From positions 124,001 to 188,000 of the forward strand of contig NZ_FQWZ01000007.1 in assembly GCF_900129825.1 (NCBI RefSeq): 64,000 nucleotides of DNA, read 5' to 3'. The DNA comes from Hydrocarboniphaga daqingensis. Its GTDB lineage: Bacteria; Pseudomonadota; Gammaproteobacteria; Nevskiales; Nevskiaceae. Shown here piece by piece: positions 9,048 to 46,477 of the stretch. Positions within the stretch are counted from its first letter, which is position 1, and each line of letters begins with the position of its first letter. Both the position numbers and the translations under genes were made by a program. The notes under the pieces are model-generated. The model did no database searches. It had not been told where the DNA came from and worked only from the letters and a program-made list of their open reading frames with translations.

Positions 9048-9077
9048 GGCAGCGCTGCCGATACCGGCAGCGCTGCC
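9048..9077 (+). repeat. Two tandem copies of a 12-bp palindrome after rnpB
   Basis: GGCAGCGCTGCC occurs at 9048-9059 and again at 9066-9077, six bases apart. Each copy is self-complementary and the two can pair into a 12-bp stem with a six-base loop. It begins 11 bases after the rnpB 3' end. There is no T run after it, so it may be a rnpB 3' processing or weak termination structure. Confidence 0.75.
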
Positions 9078-9236
9078 GCTTGGTCGAGCGCCCCGCTGCG
9101 GCGCCGCCACCGTGCTCCACTGCCACCCCGACAATCAGGCCGGACTTTAAGTCTGCGCCGTAAGTGGCTGTTTCTTCGTCAATATCTTGCTGAACATCAG
9201 CTGAAGCGCAAGCCATTGTTTCGGCTATGGTTTCGG

Positions 9237-9265
9237 TTGCGCGGCCCTGGGTGGTGGCATATAGT
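9237..9265 (+). promoter_or_regulatory. Promoter of the dcw cluster (Pmra)
   Basis: TTGCGC at 9237-9242 and TATAGT at 9260-9265 are separated by exactly 17 bp, which predicts a start near 9272 and a leader of about 95 bases before mraZ. MraZ boxes overlap and follow the -10. Confidence 0.75.
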
Positions 9266-9292
9266 GGTGCGGAGTGGGGCGAAGTGGGGCAA
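9263..9292 (+). promoter_or_regulatory. MraZ-box operator: three 10-bp direct repeats
   Basis: AGTGGTGCGG, AGTGGGGCGA and AGTGGGGCAA follow one another without a gap at 9263, 9273 and 9283. MraZ in Escherichia coli binds TGGGN repeats with 5-bp spacers (10-bp period) ahead of its own gene. Spacing and sequence both agree, so autoregulation of the cluster is expected. Confidence 0.85.
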
Positions 9293-9366
9293 CGAACGGA
9301 TATTGGGTTCCTGCTGGTCGTCCCGAGTCACAAGATGAGCCCGCTGGGGCTCAAAGCGAGCGCGCG

Positions 9367-9807
9367 GTGTTCTCAGGCTGGTATGCCGTTTCTCTGGACG
9401 ACAAGGGCCGCATCGCGGTCCCGGCGTCGTTTCGGCATACGTTGGCCAAAAGTGAAGGCGGCCCGCTGTACCTGACGCCGTTTTCGCACGACGACAAGCC
9501 GCATCTCGAAGTGTTCCCGGCCCCGGAATTCGCCAAGCTCGCCGCGCAGGTGCAGGCGATCGAGGACAGCGAACAGGCCGAGTTGCTCAAGCAGGAAATC
9601 TTCGGCCGTTCGGTCGCTGTCGAACTCGATGCGCAGGGCCGTATCGTGCTGCCGCAATGGCTGCGCGAAGAAGCGGGCCTGGCCAACGGCCGGGTCGTCG
9701 TCGAAGGGCAGATCAGTCGCTTCGATATCTGGGATGAGGCGCGCTATCAGTCGCGCCGTGCCGAGCCTGAGCGCCTGAAGCAGGCGCTCAAGCTGATCAA
9801 GCGGTGA
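9367..9807 (+). CDS. mraZ: Transcriptional regulator MraZ
   Basis: The GTG at 9367 gives 146 residues starting MFSGWYAVSLDDKGRIAVP, which aligns with the normal MraZ start; a reading from 9274 would add 31 non-conserved residues and would begin inside the operator. The two AbrB-like repeats are visible: SLDDKGRIAVPASFR near residue 10 and ELDAQGRIVLPQWLREEAG near residue 85. MraZ forms ring-shaped multimers that bind repeats upstream of the dcw cluster, and such repeats are present here. It is the first gene of the cluster, six bases before the region of rsmH starts. Confidence 0.93.
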   Translation: MFSGWYAVSLDDKGRIAVPASFRHTLAKSEGGPLYLTPFSHDDKPHLEVFPAPEFAKLAAQVQAIEDSEQAELLKQEIFGRSVAVELDAQGRIVLPQWLREEAGLANGRVVVEGQISRFDIWDEARYQSRRAEPERLKQALKLIKR

Positions 9808-9825
9808 TCGTCCTTGCGCCCTCCG

Positions 9826-10791
9826 ATGCCCCATGCCGCGCTGCCCAGCGGCGCCGCCGATTCGTTACGCACTGACGACGCCGTGATCGACTCGCACCGC
9901 CCGGTGATGCTCGATGAATCCCTGGCCGGCCTGGCGGTGCGACCCGATTCCGACGCGATCTACGTTGACGGCACGTTCGGCCGCGGCGGACACAGCGCGG
10001 CAATCCTCGACGCGCTCGGCGGCACCGGCGTGCTGCATGCATTCGACCAGGATCCACAGGCTTGCGCGGTCGCGCAGCAGCGGTTCGGCGACTGCCCGAA
10101 CTTCCGCATCCACCACCGCAATTTCGGCGAGCTGGCGGCGCTGGCGGTCGAGCAGGGCATCGCCGGCCGCATCAACGGCATCCTGCTCGATCTGGGCGTG
10201 TCGTCGCCGCAGTTCGACGATGCCGAGCGCGGCTTCTCGTTCATGCGTGACGGCCCGCTCGATATGCGGATGAATCCGTCGGCCGGCGAGCCGGCGTCGG
10301 CGTGGATCAACCGCGCCAAAGACGACGAGATCGCCGACGTGCTGTACCAGTACGGCGAAGAGCGCGCCAGCCGCCGCATCGCGCGCCGCATCGTCGCCGC
10401 GCGCGACGAGACGCCGATCACGCGCACCACGCAGCTGGCCGAGATCATCGCCCGCGCGATGCCGGGCCCGCGCCAGAAGATTCACCCGGCGACGCGCAGC
10501 TTTCAGGCGATCCGCATCTTCATCAACCGCGAGCTCGACGTGTTGCCGCAAGTGCTGGCCACGGCGGCCGACGTGCTCGCGCCCGGTGGCCGGCTCGCCG
10601 TGATCAGCTTCCATTCGTTGGAAGATCGCATCGTCAAGCGCTTCATCCGCGATGCACGCGGTGCCGAGCCGGGCCAGCCGGCGCGGCCTGAGCTGCGCCG
10701 CGTGTCGCGCGCGTTTCCGTCCGACGCCGAATGCGCCGAAAACCCGCGTGCGCGCAGCGCCGTGTTGCGTGTTGCCGAGCGCGTCGCATGA
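9826..10791 (+). CDS. rsmH: 16S rRNA (cytosine(1402)-N(4))-methyltransferase
   Basis: The ATG at 9826 gives 321 residues. Upstream TTG (9814) and downstream GTG (9883, VIDSHRPVML) are alternatives, and the last fits the usual N-terminus best. RsmH adds the N4 methyl group to C1402 of 16S rRNA; RsmI, encoded just upstream, adds the 2'-O-methyl. SAM-binding motif VDGTFGRGGHSAAIL, then LLDLGVSSPQFDDAERGFSF and RMNPSAGEPASAW are diagnostic. Its stop overlaps ftsL (ATGA). Confidence 0.95.
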   Translation: MPHAALPSGAADSLRTDDAVIDSHRPVMLDESLAGLAVRPDSDAIYVDGTFGRGGHSAAILDALGGTGVLHAFDQDPQACAVAQQRFGDCPNFRIHHRNFGELAALAVEQGIAGRINGILLDLGVSSPQFDDAERGFSFMRDGPLDMRMNPSAGEPASAWINRAKDDEIADVLYQYGEERASRRIARRIVAARDETPITRTTQLAEIIARAMPGPRQKIHPATRSFQAIRIFINRELDVLPQVLATAADVLAPGGRLAVISFHSLEDRIVKRFIRDARGAEPGQPARPELRRVSRAFPSDAECAENPRARSAVLRVAERVA

Positions 10792-34530: not shown

Positions 34531-37500
34531 CTACCGCCCCATCGGCGGACGGCGCAGGTCCAGTGTGTACGGGTAGTCCGGGTTCGGGGCTTCGTCTTGC
34601 GGCCAGTACGTTTGCGGGGTGTGGCCGTAAGGGGCGAAGCGCGACAGGCGGCGGGCTTCGGCTTCGTAGCTGTTGACCGGGAAGGTTTCGTAGCTGCGGC
34701 CGGCGGGGTGCATCACGTGGTAGGTGCAGCCGGCCAGCGCGCGCTTGTTCCAGTCGTCGTACAGGTCGAACACCAGCGGCGTGTGCACGCCGATCGTCGG
34801 GTGCAGGCAAGACGCGGGCTGCCAGGCGCGGTAGCGCAGGCCGGCGACGAATTCGTCGCGGACGCCGGTTTCGCGCAGCGGCAGCTTGCGGCCGCCGACG
34901 GTCACGAAGTGGCGGCCCGGGGTCAGGCCGCGTGCCTTGATCTGCATCCGCTCGAGTGACGAGTCGACGTAGCGCGACGTGCCGCCGATAGCGGCTTCTT
35001 CGCCGAGCACCGGCCACGGCTCCAGCGCGTGGCGCAGTTCCAGCTCGATGCCTTCGTGCAGCAGCACGCCGTGCAGCGGGAAGCGGAATTCAAAGTGCGG
35101 CAGGAACCATTCGTCCTTGAACGCAAAGCCGGCACCGCGCAGATCGCCGAGCACTTCCTTCAGGTCCTGCCAGCAGTAATGCGGCAGCATGAACTGGTCA
35201 TGCAGGCGTGTGCCCCAGCGCGTCAGCGGGCGCGTGTACGGCTTGTTCCAGAACCAGGCGATCAGCGCGCGCAGCATCAGCTGCTGCGTGAGGCTCATCC
35301 GCGGATGCGGCGGCATTTCGAACGCGCGGAATTCGACCAGGCCGAGGCGGCCGGTCGGGCCGTCGGGCGAGTACAGCTTGTCGATCGAGATTTCGGTGCG
35401 GTGCGTGTTGCCGGTCACGTCGACCAGCAGGTTGCGCATGATGCGGTCGATCAGCCACAGCGGTACTTGCTGGCCCGGCGGCGGCAGCTGCGACAGCGCG
35501 ATCTCCAGCTCGTACAGGATGTTGTCCTGCGCTTCGTCGACGCGCGGATGCTGCGACGTGCTGCCGATGAACAAGCCGCTGAAGAAGTAGCTCAGCGCCG
35601 GGTGGTTCTGCCAGTAGCGCACCAGCGAGCCGAGCAGGTCGGGACGGCGCAGGAACGGCGAGTCGGCCGGCGTGGCGCCGCCGACGACAAAGTGATTGCC
35701 GCCGCCGCTGCCGACTGCGCGGCCGTCGATCAGGTATTTCTCGGTGGCCAACCGCGCCAGTCGCGCTTCTTCGTAGACCGTCAGCGTGATCTCGCGCAGC
35801 TCCTGCCAGCTGTGCGCTGGATGGATGTTGACCTCGATCACGCCGGGGTCGGGCGTGACCTTGAGCACGTTGATGCGGCTGTCGGCCGGCGGTGAGTAGC
35901 CTTCGATACGCACCGGCGCATCGAGTTCGGCGGCCACGTCTTCGACGGCGGTGATGATCTCCAGATAGTCCTCGACGCCGGACGTCGGCGGCATGAACAC
36001 GCACAGGAAGCCGTCACGCGGCTCCACCGTCAGCGCGGTACGCACGTTGCCGCCTTGCAGATAGGCGCCGCGCCGCGCGGGCTCGGGCTGGTCGCGCTCG
36101 GCGATCAGCTTTTGCTGGCGTTCGCGGCGACGCTTTTCCTGCTCGGTGATCGGCGCTTGCAGGAACGGCTGACGGCGGATGTCGACGTCGTCGAGCGGGT
36201 CGACCTGACGCATCGGGTCGTACGGAATCACGTGCGGATACTGCGAGGCCGGGATCCAGGGCAGTGAATCGAGCGGCAAGCGGAAGCCGACCGGCGAATC
36301 GCCGGGGATCAGGTACATGCGGCCGCCGCGAAAACTCCAGCGCTCGCTGATCCAGGCGCGGCTTTGCCAGCGCTGCACCGGCAGCACGTAGCCCTTGGGC
36401 TGGTCGAGCCCGCGCGAGAACGTGCGCGCGATGCGGGCGCGCTCTTCCGGGTCTTTGAGCTTGTTGTCGTCGGCGCTGACGTTGTCGGGCAGCCGGCCTT
36501 CGCGGTGCAGGTAGTAGAACGCGTCCTCGTAGGCGGGCAGCGCGTTGTCCGGGTCGACTTCGAGCCGCTGCGCCAGCCCGCGGATCAGCTCCCGCGCCAG
36601 CAGCGGCGTGGCCTTGGCCGAGCCCTCGGACAGGTCGGTGCGGACGATCGGCTTGCCGTCGCCGCGCCAGTACAGCGCATACGCCCAGCGCGGCAGCTGC
36701 TCGCCGGGGTACCACTTGCCCTGGCCGTAGGTCAGCAGGCCGTTGGGCGCAAAGCGGTCACGCAGACGCCGGATCAGTGTATTGGCCAAGCCCTGCTTCA
36801 TCGGCCCGACCGCAGCGGTGTTCCATTCGGCGCCCTGGCGATCGTCGATCGAGATGAACGTCGGCTCGCCGCCCATCGTCAGACGCACGTCGCCGCTGAC
36901 CAGCGTCTGATCGACGGCCTGGCCCAGCGTGTCGATCGCGGCCCACTGGTCTTCGGTGTACGGCTTGGTGACGCGCGCGGTCTCAACCAGCCGGGTCACT
37001 TTCATCTCGTGGCCGAACTCGGTGTCGAGCTCGTCGTCTTCGTCCTTTTTCAGGAAGCTCATCGAGCCCGAGATCGGCGCTGCGCTGCTCGGTTCGGGCG
37101 TGGCGCACAGCGGAATGTGGCCTTCGCCGGTCAGCAGGCCGGACGTCGGGTCCAGGCCGATCCAGCCGGCGCCCGGCAGATACACCTCGCACCAGGCGTG
37201 CAGGTCGGTGAAGTCGACTTCGGTGCCGCTGGGGCCGTCCAGCGATTTGACGTCGGGCGTCAGCTGCACCAAATAGCCCGAGCAGAAGCGCGCGGCCAGG
37301 CCCAGGTGGCGCATCGTCTGCACCAGCAGCCAAGCCGAGTCGCGACACGATCCCGACCCCAGGTCCAGCGTTTCTTCGGGCGTCTGCACGCCCGGCTCCA
37401 TCCGGATCAGGTACTTCACGGTCTGCTGGATGCGCGTGTTCAGGCCGACGATGAAGTCGACCGTGCGCAGCGGCGACAGATCGATCGACTCGACAAACGC

Positions 37501-37884
37501 CTTGAAGCGCGGCGTCAGCTCGTCTTTGCGCAAGTACGGCTTGAGTTCGTCCTTCAGCGTGTCGGAATACGCGAATGGAAACTCTTCGGCCTCGGGCTCG
37601 ACGAAGAAGTCGAACGGGTTGTAGACGGCCATGTCGGCCACCAGGTCAACCGTAACCTTGAACTGGTCGACCGTGTCCGGAAACACCACGCGCGCCAGCC
37701 AGTTCGAGAACGCGTCCTGCTGCCAGTTCAGGAAGTGCGGCTCGGGCTCGATCTTCAGCGAGTAGCTCATGACGCGGGTGCGCGAATGCGGCGCCGGGCG
37801 CAGACGGATGATCTGCGGGGACAACGTGACCTGACGGTCGTAGCGATAGAACGTCTGGTGAAACAGCGCAGCGTGGAGGGTCAT
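34531..37884 (-). CDS. Transglutaminase-like protein with C-terminal DUF2126
   Basis: The ATG at 37884 (MTLHAALFHQTFYRYDR) gives 1117 residues; a frame open from 37965 adds 27 unconserved residues. The first 100 residues are the bacterial transglutaminase N-terminal domain (DRQVTLSPQIIRLRP). The transglutaminase core has the catalytic triad Cys in GSGSCRDSAW (near 180), His in DLHAWCEVYLP (near 227) and Asp in GLDPTSG (near 243). The remaining 700 or so residues are the DUF2126 region. It is probably a cytoplasmic peptidase or amide-bond enzyme. The partner genes often found beside it (alpha-E and ATP-grasp proteins) are not here. Confidence 0.88.
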   Translation of the reverse strand: MTLHAALFHQTFYRYDRQVTLSPQIIRLRPAPHSRTRVMSYSLKIEPEPHFLNWQQDAFSNWLARVVFPDTVDQFKVTVDLVADMAVYNPFDFFVEPEAEEFPFAYSDTLKDELKPYLRKDELTPRFKAFVESIDLSPLRTVDFIVGLNTRIQQTVKYLIRMEPGVQTPEETLDLGSGSCRDSAWLLVQTMRHLGLAARFCSGYLVQLTPDVKSLDGPSGTEVDFTDLHAWCEVYLPGAGWIGLDPTSGLLTGEGHIPLCATPEPSSAAPISGSMSFLKKDEDDELDTEFGHEMKVTRLVETARVTKPYTEDQWAAIDTLGQAVDQTLVSGDVRLTMGGEPTFISIDDRQGAEWNTAAVGPMKQGLANTLIRRLRDRFAPNGLLTYGQGKWYPGEQLPRWAYALYWRGDGKPIVRTDLSEGSAKATPLLARELIRGLAQRLEVDPDNALPAYEDAFYYLHREGRLPDNVSADDNKLKDPEERARIARTFSRGLDQPKGYVLPVQRWQSRAWISERWSFRGGRMYLIPGDSPVGFRLPLDSLPWIPASQYPHVIPYDPMRQVDPLDDVDIRRQPFLQAPITEQEKRRRERQQKLIAERDQPEPARRGAYLQGGNVRTALTVEPRDGFLCVFMPPTSGVEDYLEIITAVEDVAAELDAPVRIEGYSPPADSRINVLKVTPDPGVIEVNIHPAHSWQELREITLTVYEEARLARLATEKYLIDGRAVGSGGGNHFVVGGATPADSPFLRRPDLLGSLVRYWQNHPALSYFFSGLFIGSTSQHPRVDEAQDNILYELEIALSQLPPPGQQVPLWLIDRIMRNLLVDVTGNTHRTEISIDKLYSPDGPTGRLGLVEFRAFEMPPHPRMSLTQQLMLRALIAWFWNKPYTRPLTRWGTRLHDQFMLPHYCWQDLKEVLGDLRGAGFAFKDEWFLPHFEFRFPLHGVLLHEGIELELRHALEPWPVLGEEAAIGGTSRYVDSSLERMQIKARGLTPGRHFVTVGGRKLPLRETGVRDEFVAGLRYRAWQPASCLHPTIGVHTPLVFDLYDDWNKRALAGCTYHVMHPAGRSYETFPVNSYEAEARRLSRFAPYGHTPQTYWPQDEAPNPDYPYTLDLRRPPMGR

Positions 37885-38079
37885 AGGGTCGCGGTCGGCC
37901 TTGAGGCAGGCGGCGGGGACGTGCCCTGCCGCGGGGTTCGCTGATGTGCGCAGAAGCGTAAGCAAGAATTGTCGCAGATCGAAGGCGCCCCGACCGGATA
38001 TCCCTCAGGGAGCGGCGCCGGCCGGTGGCTAGACTAGCGGCCACCCGGCGCCGTCATCGGCGCGCCCAGCGAGCCCGCC

Positions 38080-39132
<1,053 letters not shown>

Positions 39133-39135
39133 GCG

Positions 39136-40026
39136 CTACTGCGACAGCGTCACCGACTCCGAATCCTGCTCGGACAGCTGCACGCTTGCGGTCGCCAAGA
39201 AGCTGATCGCATCGCTGACGGTCGGATTGTCGCCGTCGGCGTTGCAGGTCAGCGCCAGCGTATAGCGCCCCGCCTTCAGCGCAGCGAACTGATACGAGAA
39301 CGACGCGGCGTCGTCGTTGACGACGATATCGGCCGACGCCACCGGGCTGCCGCCGGTGTCCTGCAAGTAATCGCGTGGGGATACGTTGGCGCCGCTGTAG
39401 GCGTATACCGCTGCGCCTTCGCCCAGTGCGCGGCCTTGGCGGCAGTTGCTGCTGCGCATCAGCTCGGCGTCGACGCTGCCGGTGATGCTGCCGCTGCGCT
39501 GCGTGTCGACCACCCGCATGACAGGTTGCAGGCTGTAATGGCCGTTCACCGTGGTCGACGGATACAGCGAGAAGCGCGTTTCGAGGATCACTTGCTGCTC
39601 GGCGCTGTCGTCTTCGCCCAGTTCGATGTCGATGTCGGCAAAGCTGGCGTTGCCGATCACGTCGATCGGGTAGCTCGCGCCGCTGGCGGTGACCAGCGTC
39701 GAGCCGCTGTCGGCAAAGCGCAGTCGCAGCCCGGTATAGCGTCCCTGCGCCAGACGGGCCTCGTCGACCAGCCGTACCGAATCGCCGTCGATGTAGTCGA
39801 GCACGTCGACGGTATCGTCATCGCCGTCGCGATCCAACTCATGATTGCTGCCGTCCTCGTCGAGCAGATCCACGCCGTCGATCGCCAGATTCACTTCGTC
39901 GGTGCTGCCGTGGCCCGACGCGGCCAGATCGACGCTGACGCGCGCCTCGCAGCCAGTCAGCAGTGCCAGCAGCGCGGCGGCCAGGGCGCTGTCTCGCAAA
40001 CGCTCAATCGCGGTTGGCATACGCAT
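39136..40026 (-). CDS. DUF4382 lipoprotein
   Basis: The protein has 296 residues. A lipobox LTGC (Cys26) ends the signal peptide. The mature part begins with a DUF4382-like domain (VNLAIDGVDLLDEDGS, followed by LDYIDGDSVRLVDEARLAQGRY; key G-x-Y-x-x-L-R-L-x-F), then a second beta domain of the carboxypeptidase-regulatory type (ALKAGRYTLALTCNADGDNP). The acidic run ELDRDGDDDTVD may bind calcium. It overlaps the upstream Ig-like gene by 23 bases and is the last of three lipoprotein genes. Molecular role unknown. Confidence 0.78.
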   Translation of the reverse strand: MRMPTAIERLRDSALAAALLALLTGCEARVSVDLAASGHGSTDEVNLAIDGVDLLDEDGSNHELDRDGDDDTVDVLDYIDGDSVRLVDEARLAQGRYTGLRLRFADSGSTLVTASGASYPIDVIGNASFADIDIELGEDDSAEQQVILETRFSLYPSTTVNGHYSLQPVMRVVDTQRSGSITGSVDAELMRSSNCRQGRALGEGAAVYAYSGANVSPRDYLQDTGGSPVASADIVVNDDAASFSYQFAALKAGRYTLALTCNADGDNPTVSDAISFLATASVQLSEQDSESVTLSQ

Positions 40027-41254
40027 GCACCATGACCGTTTCGTCCAGGGTTTCGTCGTCGATGACGATCGACGCGGTGACTTCGAAATCGCCGTCGATA
40101 TCGAACGTCGTCACTTCACCGGCATCGTCGCTGCCGCCATTGACGGTGCCCAGGCTGCTGTCGCTGCTGCTCCAGCTGACGTGGCGGGTCACCGGCATCT
40201 CCAGGCCGTCTTCGAATCGTCCGAGCACCTGCAGCTGACCGGTATCGGGATAGGTGATCGACAGGTCGTCGGGCGTCAGCGTGATCGCGCGCAGCGGCGT
40301 GTTACGCACCTGCCATTGCTTGCTGTCGAGCTTCCGGTCGAGCGCGTCGATCGACAGCCGCAGCGCACCGCTGCCAGCGCGGTCTTGAGCGGTGACGTAC
40401 CACGCATCCTCGCCGAGTGTTGCGCTCAGGTAGTCGTCGTCGATCGCATCGAGCGAGGTCTGCGTGGTGATGTTCTGCCGCGGCGCGCTGGTATCGGCAA
40501 ATCCAGCCGTCACCTGAAACGCTTCGGAGAAACCATAGGGCAGTTCCGTAGCGTCACCGCGCTCGACGTAGTCCATCTGCAGCGTCGTGACCGGCGAGAT
40601 ACGAAACTGGGTCGAGACTTCGCGATCGCATTCCGGCAGCCGCGTGACCAAGCGCAGCGCCGCGCCGTCGGTGCTCGAATTGGCGTGCACCAGGCCGCTG
40701 GCGTCGTCGACGTAAGCCTGGGCCGTTGCCGGGTCGAATCGCCAGACGCCGCTGCTGCTGATGTCCTGCTCCGGCTGGCCTTGGCGGATCACGGCTTTCA
40801 GCGCGAAGGCTTGGTCCAGCCCGGCGCCGATATCGGTCAGCGGGTTGTCGATACGCAAGTCGTACAAGGGCTCGACATCGACGGTGATCGACGCCTGGAA
40901 GTCCAGATACGCCGCTGAAATCGTCGCCGCGCCGGGGCGTAGCGCGATCAGCGTGCCGGCGCTGTACTGATGGCCATCGGGGCTGGGCGTGACGCCGTCG
41001 CTGACCACGACGATCGACGGGTTCTGCGACGTCCATTGCACGCGGTCGTTGTAGGTGCCGGTGTTGGTACCACTGTCGGAGGTGAACACGACGTAGGCGT
41101 TGAGCTGCACCGTCGTGCACTCCGACATGTTGGCCGACGCCTGCTCGCCATCGAGGCCGAGATACAGCTGCGTCGGCCGGCTGCCTTCACCGACATTGAC
41201 CGAGCAGGCGCACAGCAGCGCCGTACTGCCCGATAGCAAACGGGAAAACCTCAT
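40004..41254 (-). CDS. Putative lipoprotein with bacterial Ig-like repeats
   Basis: The ATG at 41254 gives 416 residues with a short signal ending ALLCAC; the likely lipid-bearing Cys17 has an unusual Cys at -2, so the lipobox is not perfect. Two Ig-like (Big_2-type) segments can be seen near the start (LNAYVVFTSDSG, QWTSQNPSIVVVSDG, ALRPGAATISAAYLDFQAS) and near the end (ITLTPDDLSITYPDTGQLQV, VSWSSSDSSLGTVNGG). Such folds are common in surface or cell-envelope proteins. It is the middle gene of the three-lipoprotein set. Confidence 0.75.
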   Translation of the reverse strand: MRFSRLLSGSTALLCACSVNVGEGSRPTQLYLGLDGEQASANMSECTTVQLNAYVVFTSDSGTNTGTYNDRVQWTSQNPSIVVVSDGVTPSPDGHQYSAGTLIALRPGAATISAAYLDFQASITVDVEPLYDLRIDNPLTDIGAGLDQAFALKAVIRQGQPEQDISSSGVWRFDPATAQAYVDDASGLVHANSSTDGAALRLVTRLPECDREVSTQFRISPVTTLQMDYVERGDATELPYGFSEAFQVTAGFADTSAPRQNITTQTSLDAIDDDYLSATLGEDAWYVTAQDRAGSGALRLSIDALDRKLDSKQWQVRNTPLRAITLTPDDLSITYPDTGQLQVLGRFEDGLEMPVTRHVSWSSSDSSLGTVNGGSDDAGEVTTFDIDGDFEVTASIVIDDETLDETVMVHAYANRD

Positions 41255-41313
41255 GAATAAAAAGCCCGGTTTGATCGTGGGGTGGGTGACGACGGCAAGA
41301 CGAGCGTCGGTGA

Positions 41314-42510
41314 TCAATCCGGGAAAAACAGCACGCGGTGATTGCTGCGATCGGTGACGTAAAGCACGCCGTTGAAATAGGTCGCGCCGGTCGGCGAGCT
41401 GAGCGTGCGCGACGACGGCTCGTCGTCGCTGGCGCCGTCCTGATCGTCGTCGTTGGGCGTGCGTGCGCTGTAGCTGTCCTGGCCATAGGTGTCGACGGCC
41501 GAGGCGCCGTTGGCGATCGGGAACGAGTCGAACTTGATCACGCGGTTGTTTTCGGCGTCGGCGATGTAGATGCGGGTGCCGTCCGAGGTCACGCCGTACG
41601 GCGTCCGCAGCGCGGCTTGTCCGACGCCGGCTGCTGTGCGCGAAAAGTCGGTCTGGCCGATCACGTAGGTCGCGTCGCTACCGCTGCTGCGTGGAATCGA
41701 CGACCAATACATCACGCGGTTGTTGCCGCTGTCGGACACCAGCAGCCGCAGCCCGTCGGTCCACAAGCTGGCGGGATTGGTCAGACCGTCTTCTTCGTCG
41801 GCCGCGGTCGCCGTCGTGAAATCCGGTTGTCCGAGTACGACGCTGGCGTCGCTGCCCGATGCGTCGGGCACGCTGTTCCAGATCAGCACGCGATTGTTGT
41901 ACTGGTCGACGACGAACAGCTTGTTGTTGGCGATCGTCGCGGCGATCGGAAAGTTCAGCGCGCCGCTGCCGGTGCCCGGATCGTTGCCGCTGAAATCGCT
42001 CTGGCCGACGACGACGTCGGCCGGCGTATTGGCGGTCGGCAGGTTGTTCCAGATCAGCACGCGATTGTTGCCGGCGTCGGCCACGACCAGGCGGCTGTCG
42101 GTGATCGACACGCTGGCCGGCAGCGCCAACTTGGACGACGAGGTGCCCGAGCTATTGCTGGTGAAATCGCTCTGGCCGATCACGAAGTCGGGCGCCACCG
42201 CGCTACTACTCGGAATGCTGTTCCAGCCCAGGATGCGGTGATTGCTGTAGTCGGCCAAGTAGAACAGGCTGCCATTGGTGGCGACGCCGCCCAGTGGTTG
42301 CGCCAAGCCCAGCGCGTTGACGCTGTTGCCGCGGTTGGATTGCGACCCGGTGAAGCTGTCTTGACCCAGCAGCGCAAACGCTTCGGGCATGTCGACATCG
42401 TCGTCGTCGCTGCTGTTGCCGCCGCAGGCGCTCAAGCCCCACAACATCAGCGTCGACAGGCACAGGATGGAAGTGGCGCGGCGCAGCGGCGTCGAGGGGA
42501 ACACGGGCAT
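41314..42510 (-). CDS. NHL-repeat lipoprotein, six-bladed propeller
   Basis: The protein has 398 residues. A lipobox LSAC (Cys29) and an Asp-rich spacer lead to six very regular repeats. Each contains a GQ(S/D)F motif (near 49, 112, 169, 227, 285, 343) and an NNRVLIWN-type strand (88, 146, 203, 261, 319, 388), a period of 57-58 residues. This is the NHL propeller layout. A DDDQDGASDDE loop in the last blade looks like a calcium site. It is first gene of a minus-strand set with the Ig-like and DUF4382 lipoproteins. Function unknown. Confidence 0.85.
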   Translation of the reverse strand: MPVFPSTPLRRATSILCLSTLMLWGLSACGGNSSDDDDVDMPEAFALLGQDSFTGSQSNRGNSVNALGLAQPLGGVATNGSLFYLADYSNHRILGWNSIPSSSAVAPDFVIGQSDFTSNSSGTSSSKLALPASVSITDSRLVVADAGNNRVLIWNNLPTANTPADVVVGQSDFSGNDPGTGSGALNFPIAATIANNKLFVVDQYNNRVLIWNSVPDASGSDASVVLGQPDFTTATAADEEDGLTNPASLWTDGLRLLVSDSGNNRVMYWSSIPRSSGSDATYVIGQTDFSRTAAGVGQAALRTPYGVTSDGTRIYIADAENNRVIKFDSFPIANGASAVDTYGQDSYSARTPNDDDQDGASDDEPSSRTLSSPTGATYFNGVLYVTDRSNHRVLFFPD

Positions 42511-42678
42511 GAAGATCTCTCGTAACGGGTCGAAAAATCAGCGCCGTTGCGGCGGCGCTGTCGAGCCGAGACGATAGGGGCCCATCGTGTTGACCAGCTT
42601 TGCGGTATTGCAACCGCCGGTAACGCCGTAGCGGTTTGATGTAACGCGCTGGAACGCGCTGTGTTGGTTGCGCCTGCG

Positions 42679-43851
42679 TCAGCGCGTCTGGCGCGGCACC
42701 GTGATCTGCACGTCCAAGCCGCCGTCGGGATGGTTGCGCAGCAGCAGATGCCCGCCCATCGACTCGACCAAGTCCTTGGTGATCGCCAGCCCCAGGCCCG
42801 TTCCGCCGCTGTCGCGGTTGCGCGACGACTCGACGCGGAAGAACGGCTCGGTGACGCGTGGCAGCAGCGATTCGGGGATGCCGGGGCCGCGGTCGCGGAT
42901 GCGGATCGTCAGCGCGTCGCTGCGGTCGCGGATCGTCAGCACGGCGCTACCGCCGTAGCGCACCGCATTTTCGAGCACATTGGCGATCGCGCGCTCCAGT
43001 TGCCCTGGGCGGCAGGCCAGCGTGCGCGCGCTGCCGCGCAACTCGATGTCGGCACCGGTGTCCTGCAAGCGCTCGACGATGATCGCGACCAGCGCGTTGA
43101 CGTCGACGTCCTGCATCGGCTCGCCGCCATGAACGCCGCGCATGAACGTCAGCGCTTCTTCGACGCGCTTCTGCAGCGTGCCGATGTCGTCGGCGATCGG
43201 CGCCTGCAGCGCTTCGGGCAGCAGCGCCAAGCGCAGCTGCAACCGCGTGATCGGCGTTTTCAGGTCGTGCGACATCGCCAGCAGCGCATCGCTGCGTCCG
43301 CGCAGAAAGCGCAGCAGCCGGTCCTGCATGCGGTTGAACGCCGCTGCGGCGCGGCGCACTTCGGGCGGCCCGCGCTCGGCCAGCGGCTCGCTACCGACGT
43401 CGCGGCCCAAGGCTTCGGCGGCGCGCGACAGTCGTTGCAACGGCCGCATGACCCACCAGGCCGCGAACCAGACGATCAGCGTCGTGATCAGGAAGATTCC
43501 GCCCAAGCTCTGCCATGGGGGAATGAAGTTGCGCCGGGCGAACGTGAGCTTCTTGCCGCTGCTGTCGATCGGCGGCGGATTGTCCCAGGGGACTGGCGGA
43601 CCCCGATCGTAATCCCGCATCGGCAGCCGGAAGCCGGGCTCGGGCATGAAACGCGGCGGCGGTCGCGGCATGCCGAAGTCGCTGCTGGCCTGCAACACCG
43701 ACACTGGCTGCATCTCCCACAGCAGCCGCATCGTCAGATACTGGCCGACGACGATCACCGGCGAGATCAGCAGCGCCACGCGCAGCGACAGCGGAATGCG
43801 GCCGTAGGTGTGATGGAGCACGGCGCGCAGGCGCGCCATCAAGGTCGTCAT
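42679..43851 (-). CDS. Sensor histidine kinase, EnvZ-type
   Basis: The protein has 390 residues. One membrane helix lies at about 23-43 and another at 117-135, enclosing a short Pro-rich periplasmic region (RPPPRFMPEP, GPPVPWDNPPPID). A HAMP segment (MRPLQRLSRAAEALG) is followed by the phospho-acceptor His195 in LAMSHDLKTPITR, then the ATPase boxes ENAVRYGG, DRGPGIPES and GGTGLGLAI. It follows the OmpR-type regulator by 28 bases and is its probable partner. The signal sensed is not apparent. Confidence 0.92.
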   Translation of the reverse strand: MTTLMARLRAVLHHTYGRIPLSLRVALLISPVIVVGQYLTMRLLWEMQPVSVLQASSDFGMPRPPPRFMPEPGFRLPMRDYDRGPPVPWDNPPPIDSSGKKLTFARRNFIPPWQSLGGIFLITTLIVWFAAWWVMRPLQRLSRAAEALGRDVGSEPLAERGPPEVRRAAAAFNRMQDRLLRFLRGRSDALLAMSHDLKTPITRLQLRLALLPEALQAPIADDIGTLQKRVEEALTFMRGVHGGEPMQDVDVNALVAIIVERLQDTGADIELRGSARTLACRPGQLERAIANVLENAVRYGGSAVLTIRDRSDALTIRIRDRGPGIPESLLPRVTEPFFRVESSRNRDSGGTGLGLAITKDLVESMGGHLLLRNHPDGGLDVQITVPRQTR

Positions 43852-43879
43852 CAGCGCCGGCGCCCGGTCGGTGGAGGAC

Positions 43880-44602
43880 TCAGCTGCTGCCGATGTCGGC
43901 GGTCAGCACGTAGCCGCGATTGCGCACGGTCTTGATCAGCCGGGGCTCGCGGCCGTCGTCGCGCAGCCGCGCACGCAGTCGCGAGATCGCGATGTCGATG
44001 CGGCGCTCGAACGGATCGGCCGGCCGTCCGGCCGTGGCTTCCATGATGCGGTCGCGCGTCAGCACTTGATTGGCGTTTTGCAGCAGCAGTTCCAGCAGCC
44101 GGAATTCCAGGCTCGACAGCGCGACGATCGCGCCGTCGGGATCGCGCAGTTCGCGGCGCACGGCGTCGAAGGTCCAGCCGTCGAAGGTCCAGCCGCGCAA
44201 GCGCGTCGGCGTGGCGCCCGGCATCGCGCTGGCACGCCGGAGCACAGTGCGGATGCGCGCGATCAGCTCGCGCGGGTCGAACGGCTTGGCGACGTAGTCG
44301 TCGGCGCCGACTTCAAGGCCGACGATGCGGTCGATCGATTCGCCGCGCGCGGTCAGCATGATCACCGGTGTGTTCGAGCGAGTGCGTAGATCGCGGCAGA
44401 TCGCCAGCCCATCCTCGCCGGGCAGCATCAGGTCGAGCACGATCAGGTCGGCAGGTTGCTCGGCCAACGCGCGGCGCAGCGCAGCGCCGTCGGCGACGGC
44501 GCGTGTCGCAAAGCCATATTGGTCGAGGACCTGGCTGAGCAGTTCGCGGATCTGCTGGTCGTCGTCGACGACGACGATATGCGGGCGTGGCGTGGCGGTC
44601 AT
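43880..44602 (-). CDS. OmpR-family response regulator
   Basis: The ATG at 44602 gives 240 residues; a frame open to 44650 adds 16 unconserved residues. The receiver domain has HIVVVDDDQQIRELL, the phospho-acceptor Asp57 in LIVLDLMLPG, and the lysine in YVAKPFDPREL. The C-terminal winged helix (SSLEFRLLELLLQNANQVLTRD, then ERRIDIAISRLRARL and VRNRGYVLT) binds DNA. The linker contains an exact duplication, GWTFDGWTFD, from a 15-base tandem repeat. It lies between the GspE-type ATPase gene and the kinase gene. Confidence 0.93.
   Translation of the reverse strand: MTATPRPHIVVVDDDQQIRELLSQVLDQYGFATRAVADGAALRRALAEQPADLIVLDLMLPGEDGLAICRDLRTRSNTPVIMLTARGESIDRIVGLEVGADDYVAKPFDPRELIARIRTVLRRASAMPGATPTRLRGWTFDGWTFDAVRRELRDPDGAIVALSSLEFRLLELLLQNANQVLTRDRIMEATAGRPADPFERRIDIAISRLRARLRDDGREPRLIKTVRNRGYVLTADIGSS
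44165..44194. repeat. 15-bp tandem repeat inside the response regulator gene
   Basis: GTCGAAGGTCCAGCC occurs at 44165-44179 and again at 44180-44194. It keeps the frame and doubles five residues in the interdomain linker. Confidence 0.9.
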
Positions 44603-44650
44603 GAGGCGAGGGGCGGGCCGGGAGTCAGCGTCTGACAACGCTGACGCCAA

Positions 44651-46477
44651 TCAGTTGCGCGCCTCGGTGCCGGCGGGTGGGGGCGCGTCCGGTGAGCAGC
44701 GCAGCACTTCGTCGATCGTCGTCAGGCCCTCGGCGATCTTGCTGGCGCCGGCAATCCGCAGCGGCCGCATGCCGTCGGCGACGGCCAGCGTGCGCAGCTC
44801 GGCCGGGTCGGCGCTGGCGTGGATGCCGGCGCGCAGCGCGGGCGTCATTCGCAGAATCTCGTAGACGCCGGCGCGGCCCAAGTAGCCGGTTTCGCGGCAT
44901 TCCAGGCAGCCGCTGGCCTGCTGCGCCGTCGTCGGCAGCGCGAGCGGCCATGGCGCGACCATCTCCTGCCAGCGCTTCGCATCGACGGCAGCCGGCTGCT
45001 TGCAGTGCGGGCACAGCGTGCGCACCAGTCGCTGCGCGACGACGCCGACGACGGTGGCCTTGATCAGATACGGCGGCACGCCCAGGTCGAGCAGCCGGGT
45101 GATCGCGCTGGGCGCGTCGTTGGTATGCAGCGTGCTCAGCACCAGGTGGCCGGTCAGCGCGGCCTGGATCGCATTCTCAGCGGTTTCCAGGTCGCGGATT
45201 TCGCCGACCATGATGATGTCCGGGTCCTGGCGCAGCAGCGCGCGCACGCCGCTGGCAAAGCTCAGGTCGATGTTGGCCTGCACCTGCATCTGGTTGAACG
45301 CGGGTTCGACGAGCTCGATCGGGTCTTCAATCGTGCAGACGTTGACGTCGGGCGTGGCCAGATGGCGCAGCGTCGAATACAGCGTCGTGGTCTTGCCCGA
45401 GCCGGTTGGGCCGGTGACCAGAATGATGCCGTTGGGCGCGCCGATCATCTGTCGCCACAGCGCGGCCTCGTCGGCGGTCAGGCCCAGTTCGTTGAAGTCC
45501 TTTAGCAGCACGGCGGGGTCGAAGATCCGCAGCACCAGCTTTTCGCCGAACGCCGTCGGCAGGCTGGACACGCGCAGCTCGACTTCCTTGCCCGACGGCG
45601 AGCGCGTCTTGATGCGGCCGTCTTGGGGTTTGCGCTTTTCGGCCAGGTCCATCCGCGCCAGGATCTTGATCCGGCTGGTCACCGACGGCATCACCGTCGC
45701 CGGGATCTGATAGACCTCGTGCAGCACGCCATCGATCCGGAAGCGCACATTGCCGCGTTCACGGCGCGGCTCGATGTGGATGTCGCTGGCGCGCTGTTCG
45801 AAGGCGTAGCTGAGCAGCCAGTCGACGATCGCGATCACGTGCTGGTCGTCGGCGGTCAGCTTGCCGCTGCGGCCGAGTTCGGTCAGCTGCTCCAGATTCT
45901 GGATGCCACTCTGCACGCCACCGCCGGGCTGACGTCCGCGCTGCTCGCTCGACGCCTTGACCGAGCGCGCCAGCGCATAGAACTCGACGATGTAGCGGTC
46001 CAGATCGGCCGGGCTGGCCAAGACGCGGTGCACGTCGCGCTTCAGCGCCGGTGCCAGGTCGCGTTCCCAGTCGCGCAACCACGGCTCGGCGGTGGCGATC
46101 ACGATTTCGGTCGGCGTGACCTTGACCGGCAGGATGCGCGCCCGCGCCGCGTAGGCATACGGGATCAGCTGCGTGATCCGCGCCACGTCCAGCCCCAGCG
46201 GGTCGATCCGGTGATAGGGCAGACCGGCCTGCTGCGCCTGCCACTGCACCAGGGTGTCCAGCGTCAGCCGCTGGCCCGGCGTCCGGGCGTCGTCCCATTC
46301 GCAGTCGGCGATCACGACCAGCGGATGACGCGGATCACCCGCGCTGCGGCCGAGCAGCAGCTGCGCTTGTTCCCGCGTGATCCGCTGGTCGCGGATCAGC
46401 GCGTCGAGCGCCTCGGTCAGCGTCAGCCGCTGATCGCGGATGACGCCGGCGGCGGTGGGGCTCGGGGACTTGTTCAT
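44651..46477 (-). CDS. GspE/PulE/PilB-type secretion ATPase
   Basis: The protein has 608 residues. An N-terminal GspE/MshE-like domain is followed by the ATPase core: Asp box DIHIEPRRERGNVRFRIDG, Walker A GPTGSGKTTT (356-365), Walker B IIMVGEIRDLETAE (421-434), His box LTGHLVLSTLHTND. Paired cysteines CPHC (489-492) and CLEC (524-527) form the zinc site of GspE and PilB. It powers type II secretion or type IV pili; no other gsp or pil genes lie in this window. The two-component pair follows in the same direction 48 bases on. Confidence 0.88.
   Translation of the reverse strand: MNKSPSPTAAGVIRDQRLTLTEALDALIRDQRITREQAQLLLGRSAGDPRHPLVVIADCEWDDARTPGQRLTLDTLVQWQAQQAGLPYHRIDPLGLDVARITQLIPYAYAARARILPVKVTPTEIVIATAEPWLRDWERDLAPALKRDVHRVLASPADLDRYIVEFYALARSVKASSEQRGRQPGGGVQSGIQNLEQLTELGRSGKLTADDQHVIAIVDWLLSYAFEQRASDIHIEPRRERGNVRFRIDGVLHEVYQIPATVMPSVTSRIKILARMDLAEKRKPQDGRIKTRSPSGKEVELRVSSLPTAFGEKLVLRIFDPAVLLKDFNELGLTADEAALWRQMIGAPNGIILVTGPTGSGKTTTLYSTLRHLATPDVNVCTIEDPIELVEPAFNQMQVQANIDLSFASGVRALLRQDPDIIMVGEIRDLETAENAIQAALTGHLVLSTLHTNDAPSAITRLLDLGVPPYLIKATVVGVVAQRLVRTLCPHCKQPAAVDAKRWQEMVAPWPLALPTTAQQASGCLECRETGYLGRAGVYEILRMTPALRAGIHASADPAELRTLAVADGMRPLRIAGASKIAEGLTTIDEVLRCSPDAPPPAGTEARN

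Follow-up and report, generated by a model that had tools for sequence, protein, structure and literature searches.

A probably co-regulated envelope lipoprotein module of Nevskiales joining an NHL propeller, an Ig-like protein and a frequently linked DUF4382 protein

In a 64,000-nt stretch of the 3.79-Mb Hydrocarboniphaga daqingensis genome (contig NZ_FQWZ01000007.1, positions 124,001 to 188,000; hereafter the window), three adjacent minus-strand genes at positions 39136-42510 encode lipoproteins of the NHL-repeat, Ig-like and DUF4382 types. By comparing this locus across related genomes, we found with high confidence that NHL-Ig(-DUF4382) is a co-inherited unit, and the unit as a whole is likely to be a privately co-regulated envelope lipoprotein module of Nevskiales. 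The gene set had been proposed by an earlier sequence-only reading, and its position, strand and spacing were confirmed by open reading frames (ORFs), Pfam matches and lipoboxes: 59 bases separate the NHL gene from the Ig start at 41254, and the Ig and DUF4382 genes overlap by 23 bases, or by 17 if the DUF4382 gene starts at its second ATG (40020). All three proteins exceed their Pfam gathering cut-offs (NHL, PF01436, 82 bits against 20; Big_2, PF02368, 34.7 against 22.8; DUF4382, PF14321, 39.6 against 25). No enzyme family was matched above cut-off in the Pfam search of the three proteins, in agreement with the claim that they lack an enzymatic motif; the DUF4382 protein has a sub-threshold match to a galactose-binding-type domain (PF23623, 20 bits against 27).

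The sequence features on which this assignment rests are mostly kept in homologues. A regular expression found the lipobox cysteine in 24 of 26 NHL, 21 of 21 Ig and 18 of 18 DUF4382-type proteins, the two NHL misses being a start called too late (L035) and an LNAC sequence outside the expression (L046). Six N(N/H)R(V/I) blade motifs were counted in the NHL protein. Of the acidic, calcium-like loops described from the sequence, the one in the NHL protein stood up to comparison, 24 of 26 homologues keeping DDDQDG as D-x-[DN]-x-[DN]-[GA], as in DxDxDG calcium loops; the DRDGDDD stretch of the DUF4382 protein showed no conservation across the alignment of 18.

To follow the unit across genomes, the Ig protein was run as query against 100 relatives, giving a match in 61, partly to a paralogue downstream of aspS. 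In all of the 30 best loci, which were inspected, the gene immediately before Ig is an NHL homologue (in one of them an NHL fragment only). The named-genome search, made with a profile of 26 NHL proteins, found 443 relatives, of which the best 80 were kept; it rests on the pattern GNNRVLIW and a variant, so that relatives without these or of lower rank fall outside, and named genomes beyond Nevskiales were covered by this profile alone. (The Ig protein alone as query gave no relative among the named-genome contigs; the NHL-family alignment succeeded.) The 80 loci fall into two groups: 27 in which the best single NHL stretch scores 445.9-658 bits, with an Ig gene (profile A2) adjacent in 27 of 27, and 53 scoring at most 401.8 bits, with an adjacent Ig gene in none. 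Among the latter, 42 have at least 1300 bases past the NHL ORF, and the other 11 have fewer and cannot be judged; in one of the 53 (L099) an Ig gene lies 5 kb upstream. Profile A2 includes proteins from several of the 27 loci's own genomes, and the window Ig protein alone as query recovers the Ig gene in all 27 loci. Summing the NHL scores and cutting at 446 bits was rejected, as this would admit nine Ig-less loci with multi-repeat ORFs of 725-4232 aa (L115, L119, L120, L123, L131, L134, L138, L139 and L142); the single-stretch score separates the groups.

The 27 loci come from Hydrocarboniphaga, Stagnimonas, Nevskia, Solimonas, Sinimarinibacterium, Fontimonas and Oceanococcus, together with metagenome-assembled genomes (MAGs) with broader labels. 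As far as searched, the range of the module is Nevskiales, bacteria of soil and water, plus one MAG labelled only Gammaproteobacteria (L095), besides MAGs with broad or odd labels; the co-occurrence, which the earlier reading had proposed to look for across Gammaproteobacteria, holds within this order and is not class-wide. Flanking genes mostly change between genera and the NHL-Ig pair stays whole, which bears out the suggestion that the families belong together, and scattered homologues were not seen for this pair. Given these conservation counts, the adjacency of the three genes is far above chance. An exception among the flanks is a DUF2126 gene (cluster 13) close to the module in both Hydrocarboniphaga and Oceanococcus; in the window this amidoligase/transglutaminase gene lies at 34531-37965, and it is also present at L042 and L070.

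The DUF4382-type gene is less constant in its place. Profile A3 places it at the locus itself in 22 of the 27 cases from named genomes, and in the relatives set 26 of 32 genomes carry it no more than 7 kb from the module. Its place is after Ig in Hydrocarboniphaga, in Nevskia-like loci and in one Stagnimonas; in Solimonas, Sinimarinibacterium and Fontimonas it is divergent from an array of response regulator, histidine kinase, NHL and Ig genes, upstream of the two-component genes. The single transcript expected from the gene order is therefore not general, given this divergent arrangement and the loci from which the gene is absent. Among four locus homologues tested with PF14321 (cut-off 25), L045 scores 28.3 and L039 27.4. 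The divergent protein of L048, in the Solimonas group, is similar to the window DUF4382 protein (E 3.1e-25) and is also recognized by A3.

Regulatory genes beside the module, which the sequence-only reading had overlooked, make dedicated regulation probable. The window kinase has HAMP and HATPase_c domains above the Pfam cut-offs and a HisKA match of 22.5 bits, below the cut-off of 26.9. By homology search, a same-strand two-component system lies upstream of NHL in 16 of the 27 named loci, whereas in six others the module is followed downstream by a cassette of an extracytoplasmic function (ECF) sigma factor, a 156-aa protein that we take for a putative membrane anti-sigma factor, and a Metal_resist homologue. 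In one further locus (L095) the two-component system is divergent, and an LTXXQ gene is also present. The two regulator types were never seen together (0 of 27), with just 1.1 and 2.0 kb available upstream in L079 and L078, respectively. At L085 the kinase match is a different gene; the same genome (L045) has a kinase called directly upstream. When the response regulator of L048 is compared with the window's genome, the window regulator ranks first (43%, E 1.5e-51; next 7.4e-35), and the association of two-component genes with the module is therefore likely to be old; for the kinase, orthology is marginal (E 2.1e-23, with the runner-up at 4.2e-22). In the ECF-type locus L037, the sigma factor passes the cut-off of ECF family NF004113 (219.4 against 208) and the Metal_resist protein (PF13801) that of its own family (82.4 bits against 29.2).

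Candidate promoter motifs support this link. ECF-type loci carry GACGGA(A/T)T-N13-CGTTGAA immediately upstream of NHL, and a search without mismatch in 15 chosen whole genomes gave one site in each of seven and none in eight, every site being upstream of NHL; the reversed control gave none in all 15. Five of the seven supplied the loci from which the motif was derived; G047 and G053 did not. Two related Oceanococcus genomes are an independent test of the sigma-promoter link: no sigma gene lies near NHL-Ig, and an orthologous sigma gene (50% and 49% identity) is unlinked. With up to two mismatches, a variant of the motif occurs just twice in each genome, upstream of NHL and at the sigma gene; the latter has one mismatch and lies 27 bases before the sigma ORF, with a Metal_resist-like gene next (36% identity).

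For the two-component type, a direct repeat in the gap between kinase and NHL genes is a putative response-regulator site in Hydrocarboniphaga (Table 1). It is present in four of four species (mismatches 0, 0, 0 and 1), was absent elsewhere in those four loci at up to three mismatches, and has a single exact match in its own genome. Because the pattern was read from these gaps, the exact match is by construction; it is the agreement of the four species that counts as evidence for a regulator site. A shared OmpR-like site in the Solimonas group is not claimed: a position weight matrix, with half-sites read by eye in eight intergenic regions between DUF4382-type and response regulator genes and tested on 12 NHL upstream gaps, gave a shuffle p <0.05 in just four (L046, L047, L053 and L066), of which L066 overlaps a probable start codon, and L047 scored higher with a different spacing. 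A sigma-70 consensus scan of 39000-44800 gave no promoter. Two overlapping terminator-like sites were found in the same region, below the shuffle mean of 2.8; a hairpin in the NHL leader may be the end of the regulator-kinase transcript or an attenuator.

Table 1. Positions in the window of the module genes and their candidate control elements
Feature	Position	Strand	Description and evidence
DUF4382 lipoprotein	39136..40026	-	296 aa; DUF4382 domain 28-168 and C-terminal beta domain about 176-296
Ig-like lipoprotein	40004..41254	-	416 aa, four tandem Ig-like domains (from model); Pfam Big_2
NHL-repeat lipoprotein	41314..42510	-	398 aa, six blades; ORF, Pfam NHL, motifs, alignment A1
NHL acidic loop	close to NHL lipoprotein C-terminus		DxDxDG-type, conserved
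Terminator-like hairpin in NHL leader	42539..42560	-	between proposed regulator site and NHL start
Putative response-regulator site	42600..42624	-	10-bp-spaced direct repeat GTTACC-N4-GTTGCA-N4-CGNAA
Sensor histidine kinase, EnvZ/CpxA-like	42679..43851	-	directly upstream of NHL; Pfam, NCBIfam, position conserved
OmpR-family response regulator	43880..44602 (start possibly 44650)	-	Pfam, NCBIfam

Several observations weigh against a dedicated module of three partners. No DUF4382-type gene is present in five of the 27 named loci (L081 of Oceanococcus, L083 and L086 of Stagnimonas, L084 and L095), the Nevskia-like DUF4382-type proteins are short (about 170-200 aa) and lack the C-terminal domain, and members of the family are also encoded apart from the module, as at G000:C13:102212-103090. 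Where tested, the Nevskia-like protein also scores below the PF14321 cut-off (L037, 19.6), and that of L048 in the Solimonas group is unmatched; the assignment of these homologues is by profile A3 or BLAST similarity. Neither regulator type is nearby in four of the 27 loci, and G043 carries the ECF cassette yet has no exact promoter site. In Oceanococcus the reversed control gave two matches in G064 and none in G070; site count alone is therefore weak there, and it is the position of the sites that counts. The relaxed Hydrocarboniphaga pattern (up to two mismatches) is not enriched in the genome, with 23 matches against 28 in the reversed control, and the held-out test of the OmpR-type repeat in the Solimonas group is weak. 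For the proteins, the fold matches are of the common beta-sandwich type with low Foldseek TM-scores on the query. Nor does the residue after the lipobox cysteine establish surface exposure, which these lipoproteins may have: D follows in three of 21 Ig and one of 18 DUF4382-type proteins, the DUF4382 ones having mostly E or Q.

Three other explanations of the locus were weighed against a co-regulated module. The lipoproteins might be sensor accessories, a periplasmic or surface arm of the regulator that would tell the kinase or anti-sigma factor of envelope damage or of a ligand. Of the 27 named loci, 22 keep a regulator beside the module despite the exchange of its type, proteins of the Metal_resist (L037) and LTXXQ (L095) families, both tied to envelope stress, stand beside it in some genomes, and in the distant L099 and L101 NHL lipoproteins adjoin two-component genes (read from sequence). 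However, since the ECF cassette is unrelated to the kinase, direct contact would need rebuilding, and four loci have no regulator of either type near; we consider this explanation unlikely. A second possibility, which we also regard as improbable, is that three unrelated lipoproteins serve one condition independently, without a complex. This would suit the places where the DUF4382-type gene is divergent, unlinked or absent, and the existence of NHL relatives without Ig, but not the NHL-Ig pair left unsplit in all 27 closest named loci. The distance matrices of the three proteins in 10 loci also correlate (r 0.88, 0.76 and 0.90, with none of 2000 Mantel shuffles as high), though common descent alone explains this as well as interaction. 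Finally, NHL proteins, Big_2 proteins and lipoprotein genes are generally common, but that the three are chance neighbours in one genome is refuted by the conservation counts, with the module kept across seven named genera among largely changing flanks, and deserves virtually no credence.

The predicted structures bear on what a co-regulated lipoprotein module might do. The AlphaFold2 model of the Ig protein (mean pLDDT, predicted local distance difference test, 90.7) can be read as a row of four Ig-like domains, their closest matches being LigA, Big_2-CBM56 and domains of the S-layer protein SbsC. That of the DUF4382 protein (mean pLDDT 89.5) suggests two beta domains, and its C-terminal part matches rhamnogalacturonan lyase in three entries (Z 9.8-10.1 over 82-83 residues), the best being to residues 178-334 of the lyase (Z 10.1, 83 residues, root-mean-square deviation, rmsd, 2.3). 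The other listed fold matches of this protein have Z <8 and are of a common type, and the listed matches mostly span its residues 79-296. Judged from these models, the Ig and DUF4382 folds would suit binding or spacing roles, a fit that does not by itself show function.

We suggest the following course of events. An envelope or surface cue would reach a dedicated regulator, which here would be the upstream OmpR-like regulator with its EnvZ-like kinase and in other genera the ECF sigma factor with its putative membrane anti-sigma factor and Metal_resist protein. The regulator, presumably acting on the motifs described above, would turn on the NHL-Ig operon and the DUF4382-type gene where this is linked or divergent, a step that the promoter motifs support. 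The three proteins would then be exported and lipidated, as their lipobox motifs indicate, with probable sorting to the outer membrane. There the NHL propeller may offer a ligand platform and the four-Ig rod a spacer or adhesive arm, with the DUF4382 protein as an optional adaptor, and the trio may bind a polysaccharide, a surface or a partner protein. That the three proteins form a complex is our proposal. As the most likely role we put forward, tentatively and from the folds, a surface-facing scaffold for binding or adhesion in which the propeller would be the head and the Ig protein the arm. We are likewise somewhat doubtful of the more ambitious view that the module is an undescribed, order-specific surface machine of three lipoproteins (propeller, Ig rod and beta-sandwich adaptor) with a private regulon of one or two promoters, in which evolution has swapped ECF sigma cassette and two-component system and left the cargo fixed.

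Each part of the module resembles something known. The best named match of the NHL protein is the ScyF model NF035926 (36.8 bits, far under the equivalog cut-off of 350), and the likeness to this and to ScyD/ScyE-type proteins (NF033206) is that of NHL-repeat proteins; the ScyF model is named for a PEP-CTERM protein, whereas the NHL proteins of the module are lipoproteins. Scytonemin genes lie near a two-component system, a point for which our literature search turned up no paper, and we know of no Ig or DUF4382 partner for NHL proteins of the ScyF/ScyD/ScyE type. Leptospira LigA/LigB, intimin and SbsC share tandem Ig-like domains with the Ig protein, a likeness of fold only. The LigA segment aligns with Z 11.7 over 179 residues, and its domain arrangement differs, given an rmsd of 15.0; SbsC domains reach Z 9.9 and intimin 8.1. 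Unlike all of these, the module Ig protein is a short four-domain lipoprotein encoded with an NHL propeller. The DUF4382 family (PF14321) is of unknown function, and the module protein adds a C-terminal domain to it; in the literature searched, one paper names the family, on archaeal glycoproteomics (PMC8241124).

Among known regulators, the window kinase and response regulator find their best named models in EnvZ, CpxA and OmpR, which places them near EnvZ/OmpR and CpxA/CpxR. The pair differs in falling below the NCBIfam equivalog cut-offs (EnvZ 160.5 against 415, OmpR 240.4 against 331; NF007004, NF007005) and in having a proposed site with one exact genome match. The ECF cassette is reminiscent of CnrYXH, where the metal-binding sensor CnrX, a Metal_resist family member, releases the anti-sigma factor and the Cnr system governs a cation pump: CnrH is among the PDB matches of the L037 sigma factor (E 3.5e-13), behind SigE and SigW in score, and a Metal_resist protein is encoded two genes past it. 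A closer equation of that protein with CnrX finds no support in the PDB sequence search, which gave just Spy, weakly (E 0.11), and the cargo of the L037 cassette is different, being the lipoprotein set. The three domain families and both regulator types are already known; in the literature searched, which omits most subscription journals, we did not find their combination, its range of one order (as far as searched) or the regulator exchange.

With the module, the function-unknown DUF4382 family and an NHL lipoprotein family gain fixed partners and candidate regulators, and their role becomes testable. One cargo under two unrelated regulators, with one or two promoter sites in a genome, offers a natural example of regulator replacement, and the module promoter would be a convenient reporter of what the kinase and the sigma factor sense.

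Relatives of the three proteins were also seen outside the arrangement described. A second Ig protein is present in many genomes and was considered as a module member; in the loci inspected it is a separate paralogue downstream of aspS. One such Ig-like lipoprotein gene directly follows aspS at G000:C6:270328-271377 (L057, outside the window), as in other Nevskiales genomes, and nadA, glyA, nrdR and rib genes (names read from sequence) come next in several of them. The DUF4382 gene at G000:C13:102212-103090 (L063), likewise outside the window, encodes a stand-alone lipoprotein 32% identical to that of the module and scores 37.9 bits with PF14321. In G047 (L014/L065, about 9052-10626), the NHL signal and first blades are fused in-frame to the mature Ig protein, either by a natural deletion or as a MAG artefact. 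In L098, L103, L107, L114, L118 and L124, the gene immediately before clpS-clpA (names again read from sequence) belongs to a more distant NHL lipoprotein lineage, and in L099 a DUF4394 lipoprotein sits between the distant NHL lipoprotein and the two-component genes.

On either side of the module in the window, the end of the DUF4382 gene faces that of an ELFV-type dehydrogenase gene (38080-39132), the two converging with a gap of three bases (39132-39136), and a type II/IV secretion ATPase gene with an MshEN domain (44651-46477) has its stop abutting the response regulator ORF. Among the loci compared, a relative of this ATPase is near the module in L034 only.

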